IMG/VR virus record: IMGVR_UViG_3300035698_027903
Coordinates: 1 to 21,492 of that record
Direction: 5' to 3' (one strand)
Source of the DNA: a virus
DNA length: 21,492 bases
Shown: piece by piece, positions 495 through 19,274 of the stretch
Layout: each line of letters starts with the position of its first letter
How positions within the stretch are numbered: position 1 is the stretch's first letter
Notes under the pieces: model-generated
Databases searched by the model: none
Seen by the model: the letters and a program-made list of their open reading frames with translations, nothing else
What the model was told of the DNA's origin: nothing
Translations under genes and position numbers: made by a program

Positions 495-1067
495 TCATGC
501 AGATCCCCCTGTCATTAATCCTGATCCTCTGATTGCAGTTATGATTATTACTGTAAGTAATATCAAAACAACCATTGCACCAATAACAACAAAGATGGCA
601 AACCAATCTGTAACTCCTGCAATGCCAATTGTAGTATCATTCATAACATCTGTTGCACCATTTGTTGCATCATAAGTGTATGAATAAGTAACCAATAAGG
701 CAGATGCCCATGTTGTAGTTACAGAGGCATTATGCAATACACAATTATCTCCACGAGTTGTAAAGTCCGATTGTGTAAAATTACCCAATCCTAACAATGC
801 ACCTCCTGTACCATTATAAACTGCTGTTACATCACCACAAATACTATTTGTGTATGATAAACCATCCAATCCATGTGGGAAAGCACTTATCAAAGTACTC
901 TCATTTGCAGATGTAACTGTTGTACTGTCATAAGTTGAATTAATCAACTCACCACCCATAAGGGAAAAGATCATCACTAAAAGTCCAATAACAAATAAAA
1001 ATGTAACAAGGGATAACAGAATTGTTAAACCTGCAACACCTTTATCAGTACTTGCTGTTGTTTTCAT
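495..1067 (-). CDS. Capsid-like two-helix membrane protein, long paralog (190 aa)
   Basis: The N-terminus MKTTASTDKG is followed by a 27-residue hydrophobic helix (VAGLTILLSLV...), then a polar, Asn/Thr-rich middle with several N-glycosylation sequons (NST, NES, NGT, NFT, NAS, NDT), then a second hydrophobic helix near the C-terminus and a GGSA end. The ends are almost identical to those of the 101-aa protein just upstream; the difference is about 90 extra residues in the loop, with two or three cysteines. Two-helix proteins in tandem are typical of coat proteins of spindle-shaped archaeal viruses (SSV VP1/VP3). The DKG/VAGL junction also fits a class III prepilin signal. There is no clear Shine-Dalgarno site, so translation may be coupled to the upstream gene. 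It is probably a virion surface variant, or else a pilin-like protein. Confidence 0.7.
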   Translation of the reverse strand: MKTTASTDKGVAGLTILLSLVTFLFVIGLLVMIFSLMGGELINSTYDSTTVTSANESTLISAFPHGLDGLSYTNSICGDVTAVYNGTGGALLGLGNFTQSDFTTRGDNCVLHNASVTTTWASALLVTYSYTYDATNGATDVMNDTTIGIAGVTDWFAIFVVIGAMVVLILLTVIIITAIRGSGLMTGGSA

Positions 1068-1096: not shown

Positions 1097-1402
1097 TCAT
1101 GCAGATCCTCCTGCCATTAGTCCTGATCCTCTAATTGCAGTTATAATTATAACTGTCAATAAGATTAACACAACCATAGCACCGATCACGATAAATATTG
1201 GAAACCAATCCGTTACGGATGATATACTTGTTGTGGTGTCATTTATTACACCAATTGCAGTAGTATCAGTTGTACTTGATTGTAATTCTCCACCCATTAA
1301 TGAGAAGATCATTACTAAAAGTCCGATAACGAAAAGCATTGTTACAAGGGATAACAGAATTGTTAAACCTGCAACTCCTCTATCTTTCTGTGCGAATTTC
1401 AC
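1097..1402 (-). CDS. Capsid-like two-helix membrane protein, short paralog (101 aa)
   Basis: The protein has a charged start (MKFAQKDRG), a hydrophobic helix at about residues 10-36, a short polar loop with one NDT sequon, a second hydrophobic helix at about 67-92, and a small Gly/Ser tail. This size and topology match major coat proteins of spindle-like archaeal viruses. The K-D-R-G/V-A-G-L junction also resembles an archaeal prepilin cleavage site, and the element encodes an A24 peptidase. I chose the GTG at 1402 because AAAGGAGGT lies 11 nt upstream. A dedicated TATA promoter lies about 60 nt further upstream, which fits high expression. The gene has more CpG than its neighbours. Major capsid protein is my best guess; a pilin-like filament protein is the alternative. 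Confidence 0.7.
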   Translation of the reverse strand: MKFAQKDRGVAGLTILLSLVTMLFVIGLLVMIFSLMGGELQSSTTDTTAIGVINDTTTSISSVTDWFPIFIVIGAMVVLILLTVIIITAIRGSGLMAGGSA

Positions 1403-1515: not shown

Positions 1516-1830
1516 TTAATAATCTTTCTTTTGTGTTAATAACAATACAGATGATATAACTGTGATCCCAATTATGATCCCAAAATCTAATCCTGATACA
1601 AGGCCAACCACCCAAAAGATCAGGCCAATTACAAAAGTAATATAAGATGATACTGCCAATGCACCAATAAAATCATCATCCTTTGCTCTCAAATATCCAA
1701 ATATAAAGATTACAAATACTGCAATCATTAACATTCTCCCAAACCAAAAGTTTGTTACTGTACTTAAATAAGGCAAAAAACTGTCCATTCCTGCACTTGC
1801 ATTTATTGTTGTTGGTGATAAATATGCCAT
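1516..1830 (-). CDS. 104-aa membrane protein with three predicted TM helices
   Basis: Hydrophobic segments lie at about residues 28-47, 54-80 and 83-99, separated by very short loops that include an RAKDDD stretch, with a charged QKKDY end. No enzyme motif is seen and I do not recognise the family. It starts one base after the stop of the 139-aa membrane protein and shares its transcript, so it is probably a minor virion membrane component or assembly factor. The ATG at 1830 has only a weak upstream purine tract (AGGATC). Confidence 0.6.
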   Translation of the reverse strand: MAYLSPTTINASAGMDSFLPYLSTVTNFWFGRMLMIAVFVIFIFGYLRAKDDDFIGALAVSSYITFVIGLIFWVVGLVSGLDFGIIIGITVISSVLLLTQKKDY

Positions 1831-1831
1831 T

Positions 1832-2251
1832 TTATGATCCTGCTCTCAACAACCTCCATATTCCTAATATTAAACTGATTGCCAATAATCCCAAAATCAC
1901 ATTGATCACCAATGATGGCACATGAAATATATTAATCAAAATACTTGATAACAATGTAAATGGTGCAACAATTAAGTTTATCATATCTGTTGCAACTGAA
2001 AAGATCCCACTTGCATCATCAATATTATCAACATCTCCACTCTCAAATCTTGATCTATAAGATGAGGCATTTCCCTCAATTGTGTTTGCTGTATTTTGAA
2101 AATTAATAACACTCAATGATCCATCTCCAATCTCTTGTGCATCTCTGCCATACTCTGCACCAAAATCAACTGCAACTGATAAGATCAACCAACTGAATGT
2201 TACAAATAAAACCAATGCAATCAAGATCCCTTTGAAACTATCTTCTGCCAT
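1832..2251 (-). CDS. 139-aa membrane protein with terminal TM helices
   Basis: The protein starts MAEDSFKG followed by a hydrophobic helix (about residues 9-28), a polar middle with GAEYGRDAQE and a YRSRFESGD segment, and a second hydrophobic region at about 85-135, probably two helices. The FKG/ILIALVLF boundary is loosely like a prepilin signal. Similar short N-TM/C-TM proteins occur in DPANN archaea and archaeal virus-like elements, but I cannot name a family. GGGAG lies at a proper distance before the ATG, and the gene follows the spike gene directly, suggesting a structural or anchoring role beside the spike. Confidence 0.6.
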   Translation of the reverse strand: MAEDSFKGILIALVLFVTFSWLILSVAVDFGAEYGRDAQEIGDGSLSVINFQNTANTIEGNASSYRSRFESGDVDNIDDASGIFSVATDMINLIVAPFTLLSSILINIFHVPSLVINVILGLLAISLILGIWRLLRAGS

Positions 2252-5200
2252 TTATGATCTCCCTTTTGTTAATTTCCATAACAAAATACCTCCTGCAATT
2301 ATTAAATAAATAACAATGTTTAATCCTGTTGATAATTCTGTTGCGATCAATCCCAATGCACCTGAAATTACAACACCCAACATTACAAAGATCAAAGTAC
2401 CAACTCCCTCTGATACTGCCATCAATCCCAAAGTTAAGATCAATAATCCTGCAAGGAATAATGATAATGTTGATCCAAAGAAATCTCCTGATTTTTGTGA
2501 GAAATCAACCCACTCTGAATTTTTAAACTCATCATCTGCATAAACTGTTGCAAAAAAACTCACATTACCTGCACTTTGTGGTACTGTCATTGCAATTGAT
2601 CCTGATGTACCTGTTGTTGATGTGGTATTAATTGGAGAGTATGATCCATCTGCATTATATTTGAAAACAGTTAAATTCATTTTTGTTGCAGTATCAGTTT
2701 GATAAGTTAAATTAACAACTCTTGTTGATGCACTTGATGAGATTGAGTATGCACCATTACTCAAAAGATCCCAATCTGTTGGAAATGTTGCACCTGTTGA
2801 TGAGGCCTCAATTTGAATTGTACAAGGAGTTGCTTGGCATAATGCTGTATAACTTGATGATGTATGCAGGATTGTACCATATTGTGAGATCACAAAATAA
2901 TAAATAACATCCTCCTCAACAAGATGCACAATTGTATCCCCATTTTGATCTGCTTTTCCTCTTTCAACCTCTCTGAATGTACCTGATCCAATATATTTCC
3001 TAAACACATGCACAATTGCATCCTCAACAGGCAACCCATCTGTATCAAAGTAATTGAATAAAAAGGATGTACTATCTGCTGTTTTAAGATCATAAAGATT
3101 TAATGGAGTTTTTGTTAATGAATTAAATATTTTACTGCTGTTTAAAGTACCATCATCAATATAAAAAAACTCCCAAACATGATCTGTACTATCAAACCCA
3201 ATTGTAAAATCAATCCACCATTGAGTACTATTCAAAACATTTGCAGGGATACAAACCAAAGGGTTATTTTCATTTGTCCATGTGTTATAATAATCCAAAG
3301 TAATTGAGGAGTTTGTTTTTGATGTTAATGTTAAATCAATCTCAAAGTTTGCACCTGCACTCTCATTGATTGCTGTTGTTAATTCTTCATCCAATAAACT
3401 CATGTTAAGGATCACATCTGTGTATGCACTACAATCACCAATACCCAACTCATAAACTGTGATGTTTGCAGTTGAGGAGTTTTGATTTGTTGTGATCCCT
3501 GTAATTGTATAATTCCAATAATAATCTTGTAAATATCCTGTTGTATTTCCCCATGTACTCGGTACATTCAAAACAACATCAAAGGAGTATGCATTTGTAC
3601 CTGCTGTTGTAGTTGTTGGATTATAAACAGATCCATTGATATTAAGTTGTGCAGTTGTAACACCAATACCTGACATATTCACATCAAGATGGAATGTTGT
3701 ATCAAATCCCTCAACTGTTGGATCAGGAGTATCACTTGTTGCTGTTGTTATTTGATAAACTGAAATTGTATCACTATCACATGTTTCAAATCCAAAAGTA
3801 TCATTTGCACAGAATTGAATTGTTTTAACTCCATCTGTTGCCCATGTTGTATTTGTAGTTGCATTGCAGGTGATCACAGTATAAGTTGCATTATCAGTTG
3901 TGTTAAAATAACAACTATCAAGATGCACATCATTTGCAGTATAATTCCATGTTGAATTTATTGGCATTGTTAATGTAATAATATTATCAAGGCCTGTTGC
4001 AGTTGAGATCACAGGATCAGTACTATCAACTGTTAAGTATCTTGTTGATGTGTTTGTTGTCTCTGTATCATCATTCCCTGTGCAATACCATTCCCAATAT
4101 CCATCTGCAAGAGTTTCAGTTGAGGCCAAACTTAAATTTGTTGTCAAATCTCCTGTTACAGTTTCATAAACAGATCCATTAATTGTTAAGTTTAAACTTA
4201 ATCCTCCTGTTTCATCTGTAAGGTTACAATTAAAAGCAACACTTTGAGATGTAGAGTTATAATAATCAATTGGAGAGTTTGCATTTACTGAAAAAGAATT
4301 TGTGTTAATTTCTAATCCAAATATGTATGTTGGTTCTGAACTTGAATAACCCCTTATTAAAACATAATCCAATCTTGTTGTACCTACAATTGCTTGGTTA
4401 TTATTTCCAAAACTTGCTTTTAATGAATTTGTATAACCCAAAGTAGTTGTATCAAATTGTGTTTCATCTAATTTTCCAATAGTATTAGTACCATCTAAAA
4501 TAATTTCTTTAACATACCATGTTGCATCTGTTTCTGATGGCCTTGAACCTGATGCAGTATTATAAGCATCTGTTTCTACCCACATTTGATCCGAACCATA
4601 GTCAGTTGTAATCATTGAGACAGGAGATCCAAAATAACCCCATTTCCCTGATGCATCATACCCTGTACTCCCACCAAAAGCATAAATCCATCCTGTACCC
4701 CCTGTTTTATAGGTTTTTCCCTCTATCCTCATAGTTTGATTAACAAAGTTTTTTGCAAAAATTCCATCTCCTGCACTATTAATTTCTAAATAACCCCCTG
4801 TTTCTGATGGTGTGTTTTGCACATCCCATTTAGTTGTATTTATTGATGCATCATTAAAATCATCATAAAATAAAAAGGCATTGTTTCCATTAGAATTTGA
4901 ACTCACAACACCATTCCCATAATAAACATAGATTGAGGTATCACTTGATGCTGTTAATGTTGGGATTTTAACCCAAATCCATGCAAAATCACTATCTGTT
5001 TTGTTTTCAATAATATATCCCAACTCTGTATCCTCTGCCAAATTTGTAAATCTTATATCTGCAAAATCTGTTTCCATATTTGCAGTATAATTTATGTAAA
5101 TTAAAGTTGAATAATTATTTAATGTATCCCCACTTGTTTCTGTTACATTAATTTGTTTTTTAAAACCCCAATCAGTATCCCACCATGCCCATTCATCAAA

Positions 5201-5767
5201 GGTTTTACCATGTGCCTCCAAAACAAAATCAACCTTTTTGTTTGGTTTTCTCTTGGCCTCCATTCTCCACTTACCCTCACTTTCAATTAACTCTGCATTT
5301 TTTACATAAGGTATCCAACCACTAATATCTTTTTGAGTACTCTCATTTGATATTAAAACTTGATCACAAATATTTGTACCATTTTTTGAAATTGAATAAT
5401 CAACCTTACAATTTTGCCAATCATAAATAGGATGATATATTGTTTCAGTTGCATCATTCCAAATAAAGAATTTCACATCATTAAGATCTCCTCTATTACC
5501 TGCAACATCCTTATAAAATACTCCTGTAAATAAATGAGTTTTCTTGTAAAGTTTATACTCTCCCTCTGCCCAAACATCAATAACTGATGCACCATAATCC
5601 ATCAATCTATAATCTGCTTTACTTGTTGCACCTAACCACTCATTAATTTGTACCTCTCCATGATTTAAGGCATTTGGATCAAAGGATTTTGTTTCCAAAA
5701 AGGCACTTGCCATTGAGATCATAAATATTCCCATCAGGAGAAATACAAAGATTTTTTTAGTATCCAT
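2252..5767 (-). CDS. Large surface spike/adhesin with DUF2341-type domain (1171 aa)
   Basis: A signal peptide (MDTKKIFVFLLMGIFMIS...ASA) is followed by an N-terminal beta-rich domain. A DUF2341-type lectin-like jelly-roll at about residues 195-482 is marked by WWDTDWGFKKQINVT, IYVYYGN and YDDFND. Two Ig-like domains with paired cysteines lie at about 487-670, and further beta domains follow. A carboxypeptidase-regulatory-like domain at about 905-995 contains DGLPVEDAIVHVF and a DQNGDT turn. About three TM helices lie at 1096-1168. N-x-S/T sequons are very frequent. This is the architecture of an exported, glycosylated, membrane-anchored attachment protein, probably the receptor-binding spike. 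AAGGAGG precedes the ATG, and the start overlaps the upstream 4-TM gene by 11 nt. Confidence 0.8.
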   Translation of the reverse strand: MDTKKIFVFLLMGIFMISMASAFLETKSFDPNALNHGEVQINEWLGATSKADYRLMDYGASVIDVWAEGEYKLYKKTHLFTGVFYKDVAGNRGDLNDVKFFIWNDATETIYHPIYDWQNCKVDYSISKNGTNICDQVLISNESTQKDISGWIPYVKNAELIESEGKWRMEAKRKPNKKVDFVLEAHGKTFDEWAWWDTDWGFKKQINVTETSGDTLNNYSTLIYINYTANMETDFADIRFTNLAEDTELGYIIENKTDSDFAWIWVKIPTLTASSDTSIYVYYGNGVVSSNSNGNNAFLFYDDFNDASINTTKWDVQNTPSETGGYLEINSAGDGIFAKNFVNQTMRIEGKTYKTGGTGWIYAFGGSTGYDASGKWGYFGSPVSMITTDYGSDQMWVETDAYNTASGSRPSETDATWYVKEIILDGTNTIGKLDETQFDTTTLGYTNSLKASFGNNNQAIVGTTRLDYVLIRGYSSSEPTYIFGLEINTNSFSVNANSPIDYYNSTSQSVAFNCNLTDETGGLSLNLTINGSVYETVTGDLTTNLSLASTETLADGYWEWYCTGNDDTETTNTSTRYLTVDSTDPVISTATGLDNIITLTMPINSTWNYTANDVHLDSCYFNTTDNATYTVITCNATTNTTWATDGVKTIQFCANDTFGFETCDSDTISVYQITTATSDTPDPTVEGFDTTFHLDVNMSGIGVTTAQLNINGSVYNPTTTTAGTNAYSFDVVLNVPSTWGNTTGYLQDYYWNYTITGITTNQNSSTANITVYELGIGDCSAYTDVILNMSLLDEELTTAINESAGANFEIDLTLTSKTNSSITLDYYNTWTNENNPLVCIPANVLNSTQWWIDFTIGFDSTDHVWEFFYIDDGTLNSSKIFNSLTKTPLNLYDLKTADSTSFLFNYFDTDGLPVEDAIVHVFRKYIGSGTFREVERGKADQNGDTIVHLVEEDVIYYFVISQYGTILHTSSSYTALCQATPCTIQIEASSTGATFPTDWDLLSNGAYSISSSASTRVVNLTYQTDTATKMNLTVFKYNADGSYSPINTTSTTGTSGSIAMTVPQSAGNVSFFATVYADDEFKNSEWVDFSQKSGDFFGSTLSLFLAGLLILTLGLMAVSEGVGTLIFVMLGVVISGALGLIATELSTGLNIVIYLIIAGGILLWKLTKGRS

Positions 5768-6329
5768 TATATTGATCCTCCTTTTTCCCCATACGAGAAA
5801 ACATTATAATTCCACCTGTGATCCCAATGATTGTGATCCACATTGGCAGGTTTAACATAATCCAACTTGCACCTGTAAATCCAATAAAGGATGAGGCAAG
5901 AGTAGGATCAGTCATTAAAGTTTCATAACTGTTACTCATTGGTACAGATACAATGATTGCAATTATCACTATGAATAAATAAGGTATAAAGAATATTGGC
6001 TTTGTTGTTACAAGATAAGATCCAATAAAGATGGATAAGATCATCCCCACAATTAAAAATATTGAGATCCAATGTAATGCTTGGATTGATCCATTAAATC
6101 CTCCTCCACCCATTGTATTATCAATTACTTGTGAGGCATTATTCCCAACTGTATCACTCAAATCCATATCATCCATTGATACATGCAGTTGATCAACAAC
6201 CTTATTCCCCATAAAGATCCATAAAACACTTATGAAAACAATTACCATTGCAAAGATCATAAACAAAAATAGATCTGTAAATGCACCTTTCTTGTTTTTC
6301 ATTAAAGGTGATGGATTAATTAATCTCAT
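5757..6329 (-). CDS. Prepilin-like four-TM membrane protein (190 aa)
   Basis: The N-terminus ends in MKNKKG followed by AFTDLFLFMIFAMVIVF: a basic leader, a K-K-G/A junction and an uninterrupted hydrophobic helix with an acidic residue (Asp) four places after the presumed cut. This closely fits a class III prepilin signal. A polar segment with MDDMDLSD follows, then three more TM helices (about 95-115, 120-140 and 155-178). The start at 6329 has a perfect GGAGGAG site and an ATGA overlap with the upstream RHH gene, giving a 15-residue leader. It is a likely substrate of the A24 peptidase encoded at 18852-19274 and probably part of the virion membrane or fusion apparatus. Confidence 0.68.
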   Translation of the reverse strand: MRLINPSPLMKNKKGAFTDLFLFMIFAMVIVFISVLWIFMGNKVVDQLHVSMDDMDLSDTVGNNASQVIDNTMGGGGFNGSIQALHWISIFLIVGMILSIFIGSYLVTTKPIFFIPYLFIVIIAIIVSVPMSNSYETLMTDPTLASSFIGFTGASWIMLNLPMWITIIGITGGIIMFSRMGKKEDQYNGY

Positions 6330-6550
6330 TTCTTACTCCTCCGATCAAGGCCAATATTAATATCAAAGTTTGCCATATTTAAGATTGATTTTTCAAGATC
6401 ATCAAAGGATGTACTTTTAACAACTTTCTCTGTGAGATCTCTCATGCTTATTTTCTCACCATCTTTTTTCATGATCTCCTTTTGTAACTTCTTAATCCTT
6501 GCCTCAAATTCAGGAGATACTTGCATTGGCACTCTTGATTTACCTGCCAC
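6326..6550 (-). CDS. Small RHH-like protein inside the structural operon (74 aa)
   Basis: I use the GTG at 6550, because GGAGGG lies 8 nt upstream inside the end of the preceding gene, giving MAGKSRVPMQVSPEFEARIKK. The RVPMQVSPEF strand, a basic helix (EARIKKLQKEIMKKDG) and a second helix (SMRDLTEKVVKS) follow the RHH plan; the C-terminal 35 residues are a short polar tail. It overlaps the upstream membrane-protein gene by 11 nt and the downstream gene by 4 nt, so it is translated with virion proteins. It may be a DNA-binding regulator or a small nucleoid/packaging protein. The longer reading frame from 6628 has no ribosome-binding site. Confidence 0.6.
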   Translation of the reverse strand: MAGKSRVPMQVSPEFEARIKKLQKEIMKKDGEKISMRDLTEKVVKSTSFDDLEKSILNMANFDINIGLDRRSKK

Positions 6551-7382
6551 GAGATTGCCCTCCAAACCATCCACCTGATTTCTTATTGGCCATCTTAAAT
6601 GCTGTTTCTGTATCATTTCCTTTATCAACTAACTTTTGAAAATGCTCATTAAATGCATGGATGTAAAATACCCATGCCATTGATAAGAGGATCATTGGCA
6701 ATACTGCACCGATACCAACATAAAACATTATTTTCCAAACTCCTGCAAGGCCAACAAAAGAAATGGCATAACCTGATGTAAATTGCCAAACACTAAATGT
6801 ACTAATTATAAACAATACATGAGTTACCCAATACAATGCAAACTTTCCAATATAATTATCAGTAATAAATAATCCGATCAAGGCCAAAACAAAAAAGATC
6901 ATTAAAAAAACCATACTAAAATTAAACATTGAGGAGTTTGCCTCTGTTAATTCCTCACCATAATCATTTACAACAAAAAAGATCTCACTTGCACCACCCT
7001 CCACAGAATTATTACATTGAAATTTTGCTTGGTACTCTCCCCTTGATGTAAAGTTTGTACCATTAAGATCAAAAGAATAATCAAAAATAGGATTTGCTGT
7101 TGCATCCTCTCCCTCAAACACATGATCTCCATCCTCATGATAAAGATGCATATAACATGTAATCCCTGTGATCACAGGATGCCCATTGGATGCATTAAAC
7201 ACATGGATCTCAAACTCATGATCCCCACTTGTTTTAAGATAATCTTTAATTGTTGGCTCAATAATTAATCCTGTATCACCCAAATTAATATTTGAGATTG
7301 GTTTAACTGCACTAACAAAAGACATCATCACGAATAAGAAAAGAAAACTTACAACTAATAAATTATATTTCTTATTATACAT
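6540..7382 (-). CDS. Signal-peptide ectodomain plus four-TM protein (280 aa)
   Basis: From the ATG at 7382 the protein has a signal peptide (MYNKKYNLLVVSFLFLF...VSA). An extracellular beta-sandwich of about 130 residues follows, with two cysteines (CYMHLY and KFQC) and a few sequons. Four hydrophobic helices come next (from about residue 155 to 245), then a basic cytoplasmic end (GGWFGGQSRGR). The ectodomain layout, with one strand-paired disulphide and a YQAKFQC strand near its end, is that of small Ig-like surface domains. It probably sits in the virion or host membrane as a structural or entry protein. The upstream ATG at 7397 has its GAGGT site directly abutting, so the internal start is preferred, though not certain. 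Confidence 0.65.
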   Translation of the reverse strand: MYNKKYNLLVVSFLFLFVMMSFVSAVKPISNINLGDTGLIIEPTIKDYLKTSGDHEFEIHVFNASNGHPVITGITCYMHLYHEDGDHVFEGEDATANPIFDYSFDLNGTNFTSRGEYQAKFQCNNSVEGGASEIFFVVNDYGEELTEANSSMFNFSMVFLMIFFVLALIGLFITDNYIGKFALYWVTHVLFIISTFSVWQFTSGYAISFVGLAGVWKIMFYVGIGAVLPMILLSMAWVFYIHAFNEHFQKLVDKGNDTETAFKMANKKSGGWFGGQSRGR

Positions 7383-8097
7383 ATTTCCCTGCAACATACC
7401 TCATTGGATTTAATACCCCTCTTGTTTTTTGAGATCCATTACTATTCATCTGTTGGCCTTGTCCATTTCCCATTGATTGATGTGATTGTTGGATACTGAT
7501 CATCTCTCTTAATGATCTCCTCTCTCCTCCATCTTTTGCTCTTGAATAGGATGCATAAACTAAATTAACAATATTCATCACAAGGGATGCATACTCTTGC
7601 CTTTTCTCCTCTGTGTCCATCCCCATCTCCTCATACTTCATAAAAATAAAATCATTAACTTTCTTACCATAATCTTTCATGATCCGATTAATATCCTCCT
7701 CATCATAATCTCCCAAAATAACATGCCTGTTGATATAATTTTGTAGATCTAACATAACCTTTCTGATCCCCTCCTCATTCAAAGGGTTTAATTCAGGATG
7801 AGGATTTGCTCTCCATATTTTCATACCATTATCCCAAACAACAACATCTCCTTTTAAGATGTGTTCTGTTTGCTCTAAAAGATCATTTAACTCCAATTGG
7901 TATCTTGCAATATCATCCATATTCCTTGATGAGAATGCAGATGTTTGAGAGTTGTTTCTTGGATCATTTCCTTGTGGTGATGCAGATCCTTGCATCTGCT
8001 CTTTTTCAATTTCACCAACTGCTTTTGAAATTTCATCATCAGAATATCCTTGCTTTTTAAGATCAACAACATCCTGTTGAGATAACTTAACTGCCAT
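7375..8097 (-). CDS. Conserved-looking 240-aa soluble protein at the head of the virion operon
   Basis: The N-terminus (QDVVDLKKQGYSDDEISKAV) is a small UBA/CUE-like helical segment with a G-Y-S-D-D-E-I motif. A Gln/Ser-rich linker follows at about residues 33-60, then a helical core (YQLELNDLLEQTEHILKGD, then WDNGMKIWRANPHPELNPLN, then YINRHVILGDYDEEDINRIM) and a disordered Gln/Asn/Gly-rich tail. No membrane segment or catalytic motif is seen. I believe related proteins occur in archaeal proviruses, but I cannot name the family. As the first gene before the membrane proteins it could be a scaffold or matrix protein. GGGGTGAT before the ATG serves as ribosome-binding site. Confidence 0.62.
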   Translation of the reverse strand: MAVKLSQQDVVDLKKQGYSDDEISKAVGEIEKEQMQGSASPQGNDPRNNSQTSAFSSRNMDDIARYQLELNDLLEQTEHILKGDVVVWDNGMKIWRANPHPELNPLNEEGIRKVMLDLQNYINRHVILGDYDEEDINRIMKDYGKKVNDFIFMKYEEMGMDTEEKRQEYASLVMNIVNLVYASYSRAKDGGERRSLREMISIQQSHQSMGNGQGQQMNSNGSQKTRGVLNPMRYVAGKYV

Positions 8098-8160: not shown

Positions 8161-11100
8161 TTACCATTTGATTTTTATTGGCCTCCTAACTTCAAGGCCT
8201 GTTTGTACCTTATTGATCTTTGCCATTAACTTTTTAACATTAACACTCTCTGCTGTTAATCCCAAAGATCTTGATGTAAAATCAGGCATGTATGCCTTTT
8301 CAAACTGTGCCATTCCTTTTCCTTTTCCTGATCCTTTTGGTTTCTTTCCATCAAACCACAACACAAAAGGTTTTGGAATGGGAGGTTTTGGAGTTGGAGT
8401 TTTTGGAGGCCTAAATGTTGGAGTATTTATTGTTGGAGAAAAGGTATCAAAATCTAATAATGATTTTAATTGTGTTTTCAAAACTGTATCTGTTTTCAAT
8501 GCAGTATCAATCTTAACATCTGATTTTATAACATAATCTGTTTTCATAAGATTATCAATTTTAAGATTTGATTTAAGTTGTTGTTTTAATGTAAGATCAT
8601 TTTTAACTCCAACCCTTGATCCAACTGCCAAAAGAGATCCAATTTTCATATCTGTTAATAATCCCTCTTTAATTAAGATTGAGTTTTTGATCCCTGCAAT
8701 TCTTAATGTTTGAGGATCAACAACAGTTTTTAATAAATTTTGATGTTGCAATGTTTGGCTTGGAGATAAACCACCAATTGATTGCTCATATTGTCCTGTA
8801 CCCCAATACTTACTTTGTGCCTTTGCACCTGCACCACCTGTTGAGAAATCATCAACCTTATCAATCTTATTCATGATTTGTTTTACTGTGTCGGATGATC
8901 CTGATCCCTCTTTTGTAAATGTAAATGATGGATTGTTTGCCTCTGCACCAAAAGTTTTACTAAAAGGAGTTTTCTTAACATTTGCAGGTTTAACCCAAAC
9001 ATTCTTATTTTTATCAAGATCAATAATCTTTTGATACAATCTTTGATTTGAGGTTTGCAACTTAACTGTGTTTGGAGTATAATCAAAATTAATATTTATG
9101 TTTCCTTTTTGTGTCTTTCCAATTTTAAGTTTTAATGCATTCTCTTTTGAGATTGAAAACATATCCCTGTACAATGCATCTGTTTTGTATGTATTAACTC
9201 CCTTAACATTGCCCAAATATTCATAACCTTTTTGTATATCACTTGCCTTTACAAAGGTTTTACCTGATGTAAATTCCATCTCTTTCCAATTTTTAAATAA
9301 CCCATCCTTTCCAACATAACCTGATCCTCTGATACTATTATATTGTGCATAAGTTTTCCCTGATACTGCATCTTTAACCAATTGCCTCTCAACCCTTGTG
9401 ATGTCTTTAAGAGTTGCACCTCCTCTTGTTTTGATCCCCAAATTACTATCAACATTTATCACAGGCCTCTTTGTTAAATATTCAAAAGATGCAGTTGCTT
9501 TTTGGCCTTGCACATTGATCACTCCTGAATTTAAATAAGTTTCATAAACTCTTGGTGCTTGGTATCTCAACAATGCTTGTGCTTGTGATGTGGAATATTT
9601 ATTAAATTTTAACATCCTTGAAAACATTTTTTGATATGCACTTGGATCTCTTATTGTATAAGATCCCCTGATCCCTGTATAAGTTGTAACCTTGCCCAAC
9701 TGTGCTGTTGGCACTCCTTGATACAGATCTTTAAAGTTTGTACCTAAATACTTATTTGATAAAAATCTCCCTTTGGATGTCCATATTGTCCTTGATCCAT
9801 CAACTCCAATCTGTGAGAGTTTTTGAGTTTCATAAACAACCTTATTGATCACCTTTCCATCTTTTATGATCTTAATGTCCTTTCCAATTGTACCTGTTGA
9901 TTTTAAATTTTGTTTTGGTGCTTTGATTTCAACTGTACCAACTTTCTGTGCTTGGTTTAAATAATTGTAACTCATGTACCCCAATGTACCAAAGGAGATC
10001 CCTGCTGTAACCAATCCTGATCCTGCCTCCAAATAAGTACTTTCAGGATCAAGAAATTTTATTGTACCATAAGTACCCAATCCTGCCAATCCAACTGCTT
10101 GTACTCCTGTTGGGATTGCACCCAAAACTGCTGTACCTGTATAAACTGCACCTGCTGTTACTCCTAAATTTAAAGGAGTTTTAATTGCTGTGATCCCTAA
10201 ATCTGCAATGCCCAATCCAAACTGTGCAACTCCACCCACAATATCTCCCTTTGCCCAATTAACAACTCCATCCTCTTTGATGCTTAATTTTTGTAATTCT
10301 TCATACTCTTTTCCATATTCTTTACCATAATCCTCTTGGATCTTTTTTGCCTCTTTTGATCCTGCAAATTCCTCTGATGCTGTGTCAAAATCTGTTTCAT
10401 TATAAATAAGATCTTTCATATATTTTTGCTCAAATTCTGCTTGATATTTTCCTTGATATTTTGTTTCAAGGTTTTTATCTAATGCCTCAATATTTTCTTT
10501 TCCAATTACCCACTCATCAACAGATGTTTTTGTTTTTCCAACTCCAACTGATGCCTCATCAAAAAAGGCCTCTGGCTTTGTGTCTTTTTTTCCAAAAGAG
10601 ATAATACTTACTTTTGGCATATTTGGTGATCCTGTTAAACTAAAATCCCAATTAACTCTTTCATTTGCCCAATTATAACCTGTCTTAACTCCACCCCAAA
10701 GATCCTTTAAAGGAGTTGATGGATTATTTTTTATTTCAAGATACTTATCATATTTCATTATTTGAGTTGCAGGGAGGATGTTTCCTTGCATATCAAACTG
10801 TGCAGTTTGTTGGCCACCTGTACCATAAGGCAACTCCTTTCCCTCTGTTAAAACTTTAAATTGTGGTGCAGGTTTGCTATTTTTAAAAATTGATTGCATT
10901 GGATCAACAGATTGAAAACCACCACTTTTAAAATCATAAACTGTTGTTGTTGGCTTTGGTGCAGGAGGATTTTTCTTTTGCCATTGATCATAAATATAAT
11001 CAGGAGAATTTACTTTTTGATAATTATCAAAACTCATTGATTGTTGTAATGCACCACTCTCAACTCCAATTGGATCAATGCCTTTAAAAATCAATTTTTC

Positions 11101-12820: not shown

Positions 12821-13750
12821 ATGGCAAGGATGATTATTGCATGGAATATGCAAAAGATGGTTTCTATGATTGCAAGAATTTTAAAAAATCAATTTGATTG
12901 TGTGATTGTTATTGAGGGAAATCGTGGTTTGGGAAAATCAACTTTGGCCATCCATCTTGCAAGAGGAGTTGCAAGAGAATTTAAAAAAATGGGCTTGGAT
13001 AATTATAAATTTAATTGGATGCACAGTTTAATTTATACAAAAAAGCAAACAAAAGAATTTTGGCATAAGTGGAGAATATCAGGGATTGCAGATGAGATGA
13101 TCAATGTTACTTTTAACAGGGATTTTTATAATGAGGATCAAAAGGATATTATTAAGATGATGAATATGAATAGGGATCATTGTAACTTTTTTCAGGCCTG
13201 TGTGCCACAGTTTCAAACCCTTGATAATCAGATCAAAAACTTGGCAAAGATCAGGATCACAGTTGTGAGGAGAGGAGTTGCAATCATCCAAACACCAAAC
13301 AAATCCATTTACTCAAAGGATCGTTGGGATCAGGCAATCAATGAAAAGATTGAGAGATCATGGATTTCAAAGGGAATTAAAAACCCTCACTATGCACGAC
13401 TAACAACATTCAGAGGCATCCTGCGATTTCCAAAGTTGAGGGAGGCATCAGAGATTAAATATCAAAGGGTTAAAGATATTAAAAGGAATGCAGTTGCAAA
13501 GGAGGAGATGGGTATTAATACAGAGGAGGATAAGCAACTTGATCCCATTGCCAATGTTGTAAAACTCCTCAAAGATGGCAAGATCAGAAATGGAGTACAA
13601 TTGGAGGGTTATGCAATAGGACATGGCCTAACATCTCCACAACTACAAAATAAGATCAAGGCAATATTAAGGAAAGATGGAGGAGATCACAGAGTATCAT
13701 CTTACTATTGGGAAAAGAAAGCAAAGAATAAACAGGAGGGATCAATATAA
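12821..13750 (+). CDS. P-loop ATPase of the Zot/virus-packaging type (309 aa)
   Basis: Walker A is GNRGLGKST (Gly33 to Thr41) after a hydrophobic strand (CVIVIE). Walker B is ISGIADEM (Asp91-Glu92). NMNRDHCNFFQACVPQFQTL and LAKIRITVVRRG follow in the places where FtsK/HerA-like, Zot-like and A32-like ATPases carry a conserved R-H/Q motif and the last core strands. The C-terminal third is basic and helical (a possible DNA-binding domain, residues 210-309). It is short for HerA and has no TM helix. The family moves DNA into virions or across membranes, so genome packaging is the likely role here. The start is fixed by GAGGGAGGATAAAA before the ATG. Confidence 0.72.
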   Translation: MARMIIAWNMQKMVSMIARILKNQFDCVIVIEGNRGLGKSTLAIHLARGVAREFKKMGLDNYKFNWMHSLIYTKKQTKEFWHKWRISGIADEMINVTFNRDFYNEDQKDIIKMMNMNRDHCNFFQACVPQFQTLDNQIKNLAKIRITVVRRGVAIIQTPNKSIYSKDRWDQAINEKIERSWISKGIKNPHYARLTTFRGILRFPKLREASEIKYQRVKDIKRNAVAKEEMGINTEEDKQLDPIANVVKLLKDGKIRNGVQLEGYAIGHGLTSPQLQNKIKAILRKDGGDHRVSSYYWEKKAKNKQEGSI

Positions 13751-13912: not shown

Positions 13913-14770
13913 ATGGAAAACCAAACAACAGGGTACATTGAGTACCTGAAAAAGATAAAAGGATTGAGTGAGAGATCCATATATCATTACCTAACTTATC
14001 ACAGACACTTTATGGATCAAGATCTCACACAAAAGAATATAACCAAATTCATCACATCCAAAAATAACAATAGTGTGTGCAGAGGTTATATGATTTCTTA
14101 CTTGGAGTATCTGAAAAGGGATAAGGAGTTTGAGATCCCAAAGGCCAAAACAGGCACAAAGAAAAGGAGATTAATAAGATCCATATCTCATAAAGAGATG
14201 GAGAAAATTATTACTTATGCATACTCACAAAGGAAAAGAAATGGCCTGATCCTTGATCTTATTTATTATGGTGCATTAAGGAGATTTGAAATAAACACCA
14301 TTAGAGTTAATCAGATAAACTTTGAGAAATGGTTTGAGAATGGATGTGAGGGCTTGTGTGAGATCTCTGTGATTGGAAAAGGAGATAAGGAGAGGATTGT
14401 TTTTATGCATCCTCGTGCAGTTAATTTGATCTTGGAGATCTATCTCAAAAGAGGCCTGATCACTCATTTAATGAATAAGGATGATATTATTGAGAAATTG
14501 AAATCAATGGAGGATCAGTTATTTAATAGAGTTAATGAGAGGATAATTTATAAGATTGCAAGGCAGAGTGCAGAGAGATCAATTGGCAGGGCAATCCGAA
14601 CACATGAGATCAGACATGCAAGGGCAACATACTTGGAGGATCATGGTGCATCTGTGAGGGATATTCAAAAGTATCTTGGACATGGTGATCTTAAAACAAC
14701 AGAGATTTATTTGCATTCTGATGAGGGCAGATCATTGGATCGTATAAAAGAGATTTCAAAAGGTTTATAA
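13913..14770 (+). CDS. Tyrosine recombinase / integrase (285 aa)
   Basis: An N-terminal SAM-like core-binding domain (about residues 1-85; SERSIYHYLTYHRHFM) is followed by a complete catalytic domain. The residues are Arg123 in GALRRFEI, the beta-hairpin Lys156 in GKGDKER, His231 and Arg234 in HEIRHARAT, His257 in YLGHGDLKTTEIYLH and the nucleophile Tyr266. The length is normal for archaeal XerA-like recombinases. The enzyme could integrate the element, resolve multimers, or both. It is not split into N- and C-parts as in SSV-type integrases, so integration would not need to break the gene. It appears leaderless, with TATA about 28 nt upstream and palindromes beyond it. Confidence 0.88.
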   Translation: MENQTTGYIEYLKKIKGLSERSIYHYLTYHRHFMDQDLTQKNITKFITSKNNNSVCRGYMISYLEYLKRDKEFEIPKAKTGTKKRRLIRSISHKEMEKIITYAYSQRKRNGLILDLIYYGALRRFEINTIRVNQINFEKWFENGCEGLCEISVIGKGDKERIVFMHPRAVNLILEIYLKRGLITHLMNKDDIIEKLKSMEDQLFNRVNERIIYKIARQSAERSIGRAIRTHEIRHARATYLEDHGASVRDIQKYLGHGDLKTTEIYLHSDEGRSLDRIKEISKGL

Positions 14771-16266: not shown

Positions 16267-16592
16267 TTTACATTACCTCCTTTCAATTTCTTTAATTCTC
16301 TGAAAATGTACATTAATTCTTTTGCTTTATCAGGAGTTGTTTTATTACTTAAAATTAAAGATCTCTCCAACTCTAATGGATCAATATTATTCTCAACATC
16401 CTCCAATAACCCTGCAACCTCATCCTCATTATATTTTTTTCTCATTACTTTATATTTAAACCACCATTTGAAATCAGGTTTTGATTTTTTAATGAGTGTG
16501 ATCATCCAATAACCTATACCACCCAAAAAACAAATTATTAAAAAATCAACTCCCAATGCTTTTGAGAATGTTGCAGGATCAGGCAAACTCAT
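16263..16592 (-). CDS. 109-aa protein with one TM and a cytoplasmic helical domain
   Basis: A hydrophobic helix (VDFLIICFLGGIGYWMITLI, about residues 14-33) is followed by basic and aromatic residues (KPDFKWWFKYKVMRKKYNED), then a helical domain ending in ELKKLKGGNVK. The W-W-F-K-Y-K segment next to the membrane is distinctive. GGAGAGG precedes the ATG, and the start overlaps the end of the 236-aa membrane protein (ATGA), so the two are probably partners in one membrane complex. The family is not recognised. Confidence 0.58.
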   Translation of the reverse strand: MSLPDPATFSKALGVDFLIICFLGGIGYWMITLIKKSKPDFKWWFKYKVMRKKYNEDEVAGLLEDVENNIDPLELERSLILSNKTTPDKAKELMYIFRELKKLKGGNVK

Positions 16593-17299
16593 TTTTTCTT
16601 TCCTCTCCTGAATGGTTTAATTAAAAATAAGGCCAATGCAGGTACAACCCCTTGTGTTGATGGGCATTTGAGATCCTCATATCCAATTATTTTATCCAAA
16701 AGTACTGATGTACGATCAACAATATCACTCCATTGCCAAAAGATAACAACCATACAGATACAAACAACCATGTAAAAGATCACCATTGTAATTAAATGGC
16801 CATATTTTTCCCAAAAAGATTTTTTAGTTGCAAACCTTAAATCCAATAAATTTGAGATCGCAATCCTGTTTGATCTCATATCAGTTTGAATATATTTAAC
16901 CCCTGCCTCTTTCATTATCTCATCAACATCAGGGTATGATATGTTGATCCATTCTCCATCCTCTCTCTCAAAATGAGTATATTCATTTGGTGCAGTTTGT
17001 AATGTACCTGCACTTATGTATTTTTTCAACTTTGGAATGTACCAAAGTTTATCTCCTGCCATTCCGATCTTAAAATCTTGTGCCTTATACACCCCAATTG
17101 TGATCACCTTATTTCCAATCTTTTTTTGTAATGGAATTGTATATTTTAATCTCTTTTTTTGTACATAAAACCAAACTCCAAAACCAATCATCCCAACAAC
17201 TATTAAGGCCAAAAAGAAAATTAATAAGGATACTCCGATCCCTCCCAAACTCATTGATCCAACAGGATTTACACTTGCCAAACTCACAGGATCTGCCAT
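16589..17299 (-). CDS. 236-aa two-TM protein with an EDGEWIN motif
   Basis: TM1 lies at about residues 20-47. A cytoplasmic domain of about 110 residues follows (KYTIPLQKKIGNKVITIGVY, then DKLWYIPKLKKYISAG, then HFEREDGEWINISYPDVDEI). TM2 lies at about 168-192 and the end is basic (KPFRRGKKK). The beta-rich cytoplasmic domain with conserved-looking W-Y-I-P and E-D-G-E-W-I-N strings looks like a real family, and I suspect homologues in other archaeal virus-like elements. No catalytic residues are evident. A GGAGGATC site lies before the ATG, inside the upstream zinc-ribbon gene. It could be part of a membrane-associated assembly or DNA-transfer apparatus. Confidence 0.6.
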   Translation of the reverse strand: MADPVSLASVNPVGSMSLGGIGVSLLIFFLALIVVGMIGFGVWFYVQKKRLKYTIPLQKKIGNKVITIGVYKAQDFKIGMAGDKLWYIPKLKKYISAGTLQTAPNEYTHFEREDGEWINISYPDVDEIMKEAGVKYIQTDMRSNRIAISNLLDLRFATKKSFWEKYGHLITMVIFYMVVCICMVVIFWQWSDIVDRTSVLLDKIIGYEDLKCPSTQGVVPALALFLIKPFRRGKKK

Positions 17300-18593: not shown

Positions 18594-18852
18594 TTTTATT
18601 CAACTCCTCTTTTAATTTCTTAAATTTATTATTTTCTAACCTTTGGATTTCTTTTGATAACATTTTGCAATCATCACATCTCTCATCATATTTCTTTTTC
18701 CATTTATCCCTGCCCTCTGTAATATCTCTGATGTTTTGGAGTACCTTATCAACTTGTTGCATTAGATCATCAATATCTCCAATTGAGATCATTGGTTTAT
18801 CCAACATCTTTTTGTACTTTTCCCTTAACATTAACTCTCTTGTTGTTGCCAT
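18577..18852 (-). CDS. 91-aa coiled-coil protein with CxxC
   Basis: I use the ATG at 18852 (MATTRELMLREKYKKM) because CGGAGGA precedes it; the longer frame runs into the peptidase gene. The protein is helical and charged with a CDDC pair and heptad-like leucines (IQRLENNKFKKLKEEL). It begins at the stop of the prepilin peptidase (TAATG) and overlaps the nuclease start by 17 nt. An oligomeric adaptor is possible; the function is unknown. Confidence 0.55.
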   Translation of the reverse strand: MATTRELMLREKYKKMLDKPMISIGDIDDLMQQVDKVLQNIRDITEGRDKWKKKYDERCDDCKMLSKEIQRLENNKFKKLKEELNKNANSN

Positions 18853-19274
18853 TATGCAAATCCTCCGATCAACATCAAGGCAACAAATACTGCCAATAAG
18901 CAAGGGATAAAAGGCCTCTCTGTATCTCCACCAACAAACTTGATCCATGCAAAAGTATAAACCAATTGGAAAATTGCAAAAATCCCAATGAATATTAAAA
19001 AGAAATTCATTGTTGGGATCAACAAACCAATCACTCCCATGATCTTAATATCTGCCATACCAAAATCCATACCTGAAAAATCTGCAATAAGATCCTTTAT
19101 GATCCATGCAAACAATACTGCCAAAACTCCAAACTCTAAATTTTCAATTCTCATTACTGCAACAATAAATAAAAGGCCTGTTAATGCCACAGATGGAATT
19201 GCTTTATATTTAATATCAATAATTGATGCAAGGATAAATGCACCCAAAACAAACCAAATTAACCAATCAATCAT
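18852..19274 (-). CDS. Type IV prepilin peptidase (A24 family, FlaK/PibD/TadV-like), 140 aa
   Basis: This is a hydrophobic protein with about five TM segments and both aspartates of A24 aspartic peptidases. Asp20 lies in ASIIDIKYKAIPS (the D...IP signature) and Asp75 in FGMADIKIMG, matching the G-x-(A/G)-D-x-K signature that archaeal members carry as GxAD. The length of 140 aa fits the minimal archaeal and TadV types without the bacterial N-methylase domain. It cleaves class III signal peptides just before the hydrophobic helix of prepilins, at the inner face of the membrane. No pilus ATPase or platform gene is present, so its likely substrates are the element's own prepilin-like membrane proteins (495-1402 and 5757-6329). 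It is in the RHH-led operon. Confidence 0.8.
   Translation of the reverse strand: MIDWLIWFVLGAFILASIIDIKYKAIPSVALTGLLFIVAVMRIENLEFGVLAVLFAWIIKDLIADFSGMDFGMADIKIMGVIGLLIPTMNFFLIFIGIFAIFQLVYTFAWIKFVGGDTERPFIPCLLAVFVALMLIGGFA

Follow-up and report, generated by a model that had tools for sequence, protein, structure and literature searches.

A compact A24 prepilin peptidase homologue and capsid-type proteins with putative class III processing sites in a virus probably infecting DPANN archaea

Background

The question raised by this locus is whether a virus may carry its own prepilin peptidase and, if so, which proteins would be processed by it. The window, that is the whole stretch of DNA that was analyzed, corresponds to an entire virus record of IMG/VR, 21,492 bp in length. 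Here we surveyed its genes, its relatives and the N-termini of its membrane proteins, and we also discuss how the sites found in them compare with the maturation site of a fusellovirus capsid protein.

Genome closure and relatives

The first 127 bp of the window are identical to its last 127 bp, and the genome therefore closes into a circle 21,365 bp long. The relatives G001 (25.8 kb, terminal overlap of 82 bp), G002 (31.3 kb, 127 bp) and G004 (20.8 kb, 127 bp) are also closed. A biological terminal repeat was considered for these ends and rejected, since a length of exactly 127 bp in three of the four genomes indicates the assembly overlap of a circle. As all four genomes are closed, genes missing from them can be read as really absent.

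Some genes of the relatives lie outside the shared set. HNH-type homing-endonuclease-like genes (judged by eye, without a profile) are placed between conserved genes at L002:4751-5197, 5510-5956 and 7060-7386, at L005:7670-8092, 8407-8838 and 9437-9883, and at L006:5659-6165 and 9298-9810, and they explain part of the size gap between the larger relatives and the window. A protein consisting mostly of GLIxGLI repeats, with a long glycine/isoleucine-rich membrane segment (L005:2369-3034), was seen only in G002 among the genomes read.

The 140-aa peptidase homologue

18852..19274, minus strand: putative compact A24 (type IV prepilin/class III signal) peptidase, 140 aa (PF01478, hhalign, AlphaFold2)

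The plus strand of this interval is full of stops and the reading frame lies on the minus strand. Its product carries the A24 signatures DIKYKAIP (D20) and GMADIK (D75), by which the catalytic pattern of the family is met, the first Asp standing in D-x-K...P and the second in G-x-Hy-D, the GxHyD motif described for the second catalytic Asp (PMC4371748). The window copy matches PF01478 (Peptidase_A24) with E=6e-4 and 20.7 bits, under the gathering score of 26.5; the match stands because PF01478 is the sole Pfam family matched by all five viral homologues, the window included (best E 1.8e-5), and because the G004 copy passes the cut-off with 27.8 bits. The relatives of the enzyme, from IMG/VR and one Woesearchaeota bin, are about 80, 66, 39 and 39% identical to the window copy (37-81% by tblastn for the four viral homologues), and D20, K22, P27, G72, D75 and K77 are invariant in an alignment of five viral enzymes and one host enzyme. 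The comparison of the viral profile with 14 archaeal host A24s by hhalign gave P=5.7e-6, against P >=0.086 for reversed and shuffled decoys. Omega is 0.31 between the window and G001, and the gene is therefore maintained by selection. No A24 relatives were found in phages and plasmids.

The AlphaFold2 model has six helices (pLDDT 76.5, from an alignment of only four sequences). The search of this model by Foldseek returned no A24 match in PDB or BFVD, which is a weak test with a four-sequence alignment, and no solved A24 structure was matched by sequence in a PDB profile search. The match of that search to algal antenna proteins (E=0.002, residues 36-110) was rejected as a chance match of membrane helices. 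The comparisons show A24 homology, and with the fold not confirmed by a structure match the gene is rated as very likely an A24 homologue, its activity being inferred. At about 140 aa, the viral enzyme also offers a minimal A24 for biochemistry.

Candidate substrates and their sites

The slash in the following lines marks the predicted cut.

1097..1402, minus strand: MCP1, candidate major capsid protein of 101 aa with two hydrophobic helices, site KDRG/VAGL (homologues, model)
495..1067, minus strand: MCP2, 190-aa paralogue of MCP1, tandem duplicate, site TDKG/VAGL
5757..6329, minus strand: P190, 190-aa multi-helix membrane protein, site NKKG/AFTD
1832..2251, minus strand: P139, membrane protein encoded in the structural block, SFKG/ILIA, KG not kept in near relatives

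MCP1 has a GTG start and a 9-aa leader ahead of its site, which is retained in 6 homologues; its omega is 0.085 and its structure model is all-helical, with no significant match by Foldseek. MCP1 and MCP2 are tandem paralogues having the same two hydrophobic helices, with an extracellular-type insert between them in MCP2, whose site is retained in 4/5 homologues and reads NNG in the fifth (L013). None of the 15 P190 homologues that were read has lost the site, even those with an E of about 1e-8, and some of these sites are off the usual pattern, as with K at +1 in L087. In the near relatives the length and sequence of the leaders vary and D[KR]G/[VIM]AGLT and K[KR]G/xxTDLF are constant. The features of a class III substrate, a short leader ending in [KR][GA] at -2/-1 and an adjoining hydrophobic domain, are present in 31/33 homologues of MCP1, MCP2 and P190, with [KR][GA] immediately ahead of the hydrophobic domain; the two exceptions are the MCP2 of L013 and one MCP of L085 (KSA). 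Leaders are 5-15 aa long in the site-bearing homologues, even where the remaining protein is barely alignable, and the N-termini of distant members read NKKG/SAID, SKKG/DVSD, NKKA/GIGI, NKRG/SISD, TKKA/QTSG, NKKG/QALN and others. The comparison of the distant MCPs with archaeal pilins gave merely Pilin_N at E=0.44.

The window was also scanned by a simple class III rule over 26 greedily chosen genes, a set in which 1097-1402 is masked by a longer antisense ORF. The rule was passed by 4 of the 26 genes, compared with a mean of 0.19 and a maximum of 3 in 2000 shuffles. The conservation of the sites is thus shown, and their cleavage is inferred.

P139 was dropped as a substrate, its SFKG reading SFKT, NFKN, QFKT and AFKN in four near relatives. 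Its distant homologues in L089 and L091 have NKKG/M and NKRG/M, and it is possible that P139 descends from a site-bearing protein. The membrane proteins of the structural block taken as controls (P104 and the near P139 homologues) are without a [KR][GA] site.

A third MCP-like paralogue is present in G002 (L005:5437-5712, SSMSDWSGIIMVVGVATVLLLIITII). It is encoded near the A24 gene, outside the MCP pair, and its N-terminus is NKKY, not KG.

Structural block and absence of pilus machinery

1516..1830, minus strand: P104, small membrane protein with several helices in the structural block, position conserved in relatives
2252..5767, minus strand: spike/adhesin-like surface protein, 1171 aa (PF10102, E=1e-21)
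6540..7397, minus strand: p285 membrane protein, conserved structural block (block conservation)
7375..8097, minus strand: p240 conserved protein, structural block (block conservation)
12821..13750, plus strand: P-loop ATPase with a weak resemblance to DnaA, as in SSV/His1 (phrog_5484, E=2e-5)
13913..14770, plus strand: tyrosine recombinase/integrase (PF00589, E=1e-21)
16589..17299, minus strand: p236 membrane protein, same strand block as the A24 gene (relatives)

The structural block is conserved. The order p240-p285-P190-spike-P139-P104-MCP, whole or partial, surrounds the P190 homologues in distant members, and in the distant member L085 the p236 gene directly follows the MCP genes. The A24 gene and the three site-bearing proteins are kept together in the window, G001, G002 and G004, which are closed, and in the bin G003. 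The pilus ATPase (T2SSE) and the platform protein (T2SSF) are absent from the window, G001, G002 and G004, all of them closed, and are found in the host bin G003. The element, having neither an assembly ATPase nor a platform protein, does not qualify as a type IV pilus or archaellum system.

The surface protein combines an N-terminus resembling a signal peptide with a DUF2341 head and helices at the C-terminal end; in place of DUF2341, G001 carries a ConA/LamG lectin head (Laminin_G_3, E=4e-22). The head is swapped between close relatives (window 2252-5767 versus L002:735-4358) and the C-terminal part is conserved, an exchange which may possibly represent receptor-domain swapping.

The claims of the first-pass annotation, which had been made from sequence alone, can be judged here. 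It had proposed an A24 peptidase at 18852-19274, and this held on PF01478 (the window copy under the cut-off, the G004 copy above it) and on profile evidence, with the gene on the minus strand and no structural match by Foldseek. Its prepilin-like N-termini at 495-1067, 1097-1402 and 5757-6329 also held, all on the minus strand and with conserved sites, as did the absence of pilus ATPase and platform genes in a closed genome. The fourth candidate, which it had named only as a perhaps (1832-2251), failed, its KG not being conserved in four near relatives.

Probable spindle-virus identity

The group shares several traits of spindle-shaped viruses: a pair of two-helix hydrophobic MCPs, a ConA/LamG surface protein, a DnaA-like ATPase and an integrase. 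The trait of a small MCP with two hydrophobic helices is met by the sequence and model of MCP1. On the strength of these small MCPs, the lectin-type surface proteins, the ATPase and the integrase, the window virus is probably spindle-shaped and similar in architecture to the PAV1/TPV1/SSV type; the shape is inferred and no particle is known.

Sequence homology between MCP1 and fusellovirus VP1 gained no support from hhalign (P=0.089, no better than shuffles), and the role of MCP1 as MCP therefore rests on architecture. One of six MCP members matches His1_capsid weakly, at E=0.11. A prepilin-type maturation universal to spindle-shaped viruses was rejected, as His1 VP21 is without a site. For both reasons the claim made here is one of a shared mechanism, not of membership in Fuselloviridae nor of a general rule.

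Host and distribution

Relatives of the MCPs (90 and 80%) were found within the GTDB genome 'Candidatus Woesearchaeota archaeon isolate M55A3', which contains pieces of several such viruses. A P190 profile search over 371 genomes of the phylum of this bin gave homologues in six, several of them multi-copy, and distant members lie in five further bins of the Woesearchaeota phylum. The host is thus likely to be a DPANN (Woesearchaeota-type) archaeon, a conclusion resting on binning, which is supportive and not proof. The elements L084-L095 (G003, G163, G191, G206, G346, G363) are diverse and related, with <=3 per bin and a conserved structural block. No tblastn match to MCP1, P190 or A24 of the window was found in the phage collection, and the elements of this phylum form an apparently undescribed virus group, to which the A24 find has pointed.

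An A24 of their own is encoded by 37/40 relatives of G003, the bin with the nearest virus, mostly of about 290 aa, and the host bins of the distant members each have a cellular A24 of ~290 aa. The virus would therefore duplicate an activity of the host and not supply a missing one. The viral-type A24 was not detected in the distant members, whose elements are fragments, or in their host bins; it appears confined to the clade of the window, and the prepilin-like virion proteins appear to have been in the group before the viral enzyme, an order which is inferred from fragmentary distant elements.

The fusellovirus VP1 site

The VP1 protein of SSV1 begins in virions at Glu66, inside the encoded protein, the protease being termed unknown, and deletion of the five residues preceding the site abolished infectivity (PMC5748691, 2017). 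The maturation site reads NPKLTKG/EATNIGVLLGLFIFILIGIVLL. VP1 was taken from 14 fusellovirus records (L024:12567-13001, L025-L037), of which 13 were readable before the conserved Glu, inside the annotated frame or immediately ahead of it, and all 13 sites are of the type [KR][GA]/E. They read LTKG, KKA, LRRA, LRKG, KKA, LTKG, LAKA, LRRA, LTRG, ITKG, LRKG, LAKA and LRRA, in each case with E next and then the same helix; in MK054227 the site LRRA/E lies upstream of the annotated start. Fusellovirus VP3 mostly starts directly with ME, without a site.

The archaeal prepilin peptidase PibD has little stringency at +1 (PMC4371748), and the VP1 site has the arrangement which PibD cuts. In S. islandicus without pibD, SSV9 was adsorbed and no virus was produced, which the authors attribute to pilins (PMC7217056). 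No proposal of PibD as the VP1 protease was found in the open-access literature searched, subscription journals being outside the scope. The same type of site at SSV1 VP1 is shown, and it is likely that prepilin-peptidase chemistry of the host is already at work in VP1 maturation, with cleavage by PibD inferred. The conserved [KR][GA]/E site thus gives a specific and testable proposal, that the unknown protease of SSV1 VP1 is a prepilin peptidase.

A bolder reading is that prepilin peptidases are the common maturation proteases of several lineages of spindle-shaped archaeal viruses, the host PibD cutting fusellovirus VP1 at [KR][GA]/E and one clade of DPANN viruses having taken over the function with a minimal A24 in its own genome. 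We lean towards this reading without holding it firmly; if true, virion assembly and type IV pilus biogenesis would have a common first step.

Proposed mechanism and alternative explanations

The best explanation of the whole is probably that prepilin peptidases mature the site-bearing capsid proteins, with the host supplying the enzyme in other lineages and the virus encoding it here; cleavage is inferred in the absence of proteomics. In this view a complete, integrase-bearing DNA virus would make its capsid proteins as prepilin-like precursors, each starting with a short leader of polar or basic character, which is followed by [K/R]G and a hydrophobic helix. After insertion into the host membrane the leader would hold the N-terminus at the cytoplasmic face, and the virus-encoded A24, an intramembrane aspartic peptidase, would cut after Gly (Gly/Ala) and release the mature N-terminus. 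MCP1 and MCP2 would then pack side by side via the hydrophobic helix and P190 would join during budding; a pilus ATPase would not be needed, because assembly in this model is by budding and not by pilus extrusion. That the viral A24 cuts the site-bearing proteins is likely, and that these are virion proteins is likewise an inference.

It may be argued that the viral A24 acts instead on pilins or archaellins of the host, for example by altering or stripping receptor pili so that other viruses are excluded. Archaeal viruses do need pili, deletion of pilins having protected S. islandicus against SSV9 and SIRVs (PMC7217056), and genes for a pilus ATPase and a platform protein are present in the probable host bin. 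Against this, the virus encodes three proteins with matching sites, kept with the A24 in all closed genomes seen, and the host already produces a prepilin peptidase, so that we hold this explanation very unlikely. Equally improbable is that the leaders stay uncleaved in ordinary N-in membrane proteins, [K/R]G reflecting the positive-inside rule and the A24-like protein being an inactive relative. Positive residues are common before uncleaved signal anchors, and there are no cleavage data and no fold match for A24; however, the positive-inside rule needs no fixed Gly/Ala, the [KR][GA] pair is exact in nearly all of the divergent homologues, the number of such genes exceeds that of the shuffles, the control proteins of the block lack the site, and both catalytic Asp are invariant.

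A less remote alternative, although still unlikely, is that the prepilin peptidase of the host matures the virion proteins and the viral A24 is redundant or regulatory, for instance by raising the enzyme dose late. It is favored by the distant members, which have sites and no detected viral-type A24 in host bins each with the ~290-aa enzyme, and by SSV1, which has no annotated A24 and whose VP1 is yet cut at the same type of site. On the other side, the A24 of the window's clade has persisted, with both Asp intact, down to 37-39% identity and at an omega of 0.31, and is therefore not dispensable there; as to dose, this alternative is partly compatible with processing by the viral enzyme, which remains the preferred reading.

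The first-pass annotation had further inferred that the element brings its own enzyme to mature its membrane virion proteins. This is supported by homology and sites, with cleavage inferred, and needs the correction that the likely hosts have a ~290-aa A24 of their own, so that the activity is duplicated. Its statement that no well-described virus is known to do this held for the gene, as no paper on a virus-encoded prepilin peptidase of this kind was found in the open-access literature searched; the maturation chemistry is probably already present in SSV1 with a host enzyme. No case would link virion assembly to pilin processing more clearly than a virus whose own A24 is accompanied by capsid-type proteins with sites to match.

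Comparison with known systems

Like the archaeal prepilin/preflagellin peptidases PibD and FlaK (MEROPS A24, PF01478), the window enzyme has two catalytic Asp, the second in G-x-hydrophobic-D (GMAD/GIAD/GIGD), six predicted helices, no methylase domain and candidate substrates with [KR][GA] ahead of a hydrophobic helix. Unlike them it is virus-encoded and far from pilus genes, and it differs from the A24s of the likely hosts in its length (about 140 aa versus ~290 aa), with 26-29% identity to them. The thaumarchaeal integrative-conjugative elements (PMC6563490) are likewise mobile elements carrying an A24; these also carry pilins, and their A24 is accompanied by FlaI/PilT ATPases and TadC, which serve a conjugation apparatus, whereas the window has no ATPase or platform of this kind and its putative substrates are capsid-like.

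Among viruses, those of the PAV1/TPV1 type (proposed Osirisviridae and Sethviridae) share the hydrophobic helical-hairpin MCPs and the membrane-anchored ConA-like lectin proteins (PMC12934983), a paper in which a prepilin peptidase, present in the window, is unmentioned. Fuselloviridae differ from the window in having no annotated A24, an invariant Glu at +1 and a leader of about 10-70 aa; their VP1 has no detectable sequence homology to MCP1, and their partner protein VP3 is siteless, whereas both MCP paralogues of the window bear the site. The likeness to SSV1 VP1 lies in a capsid-type protein, small and hydrophobic with two helices, whose leader is variable and whose [KR][GA] site sits just ahead of the first helix.
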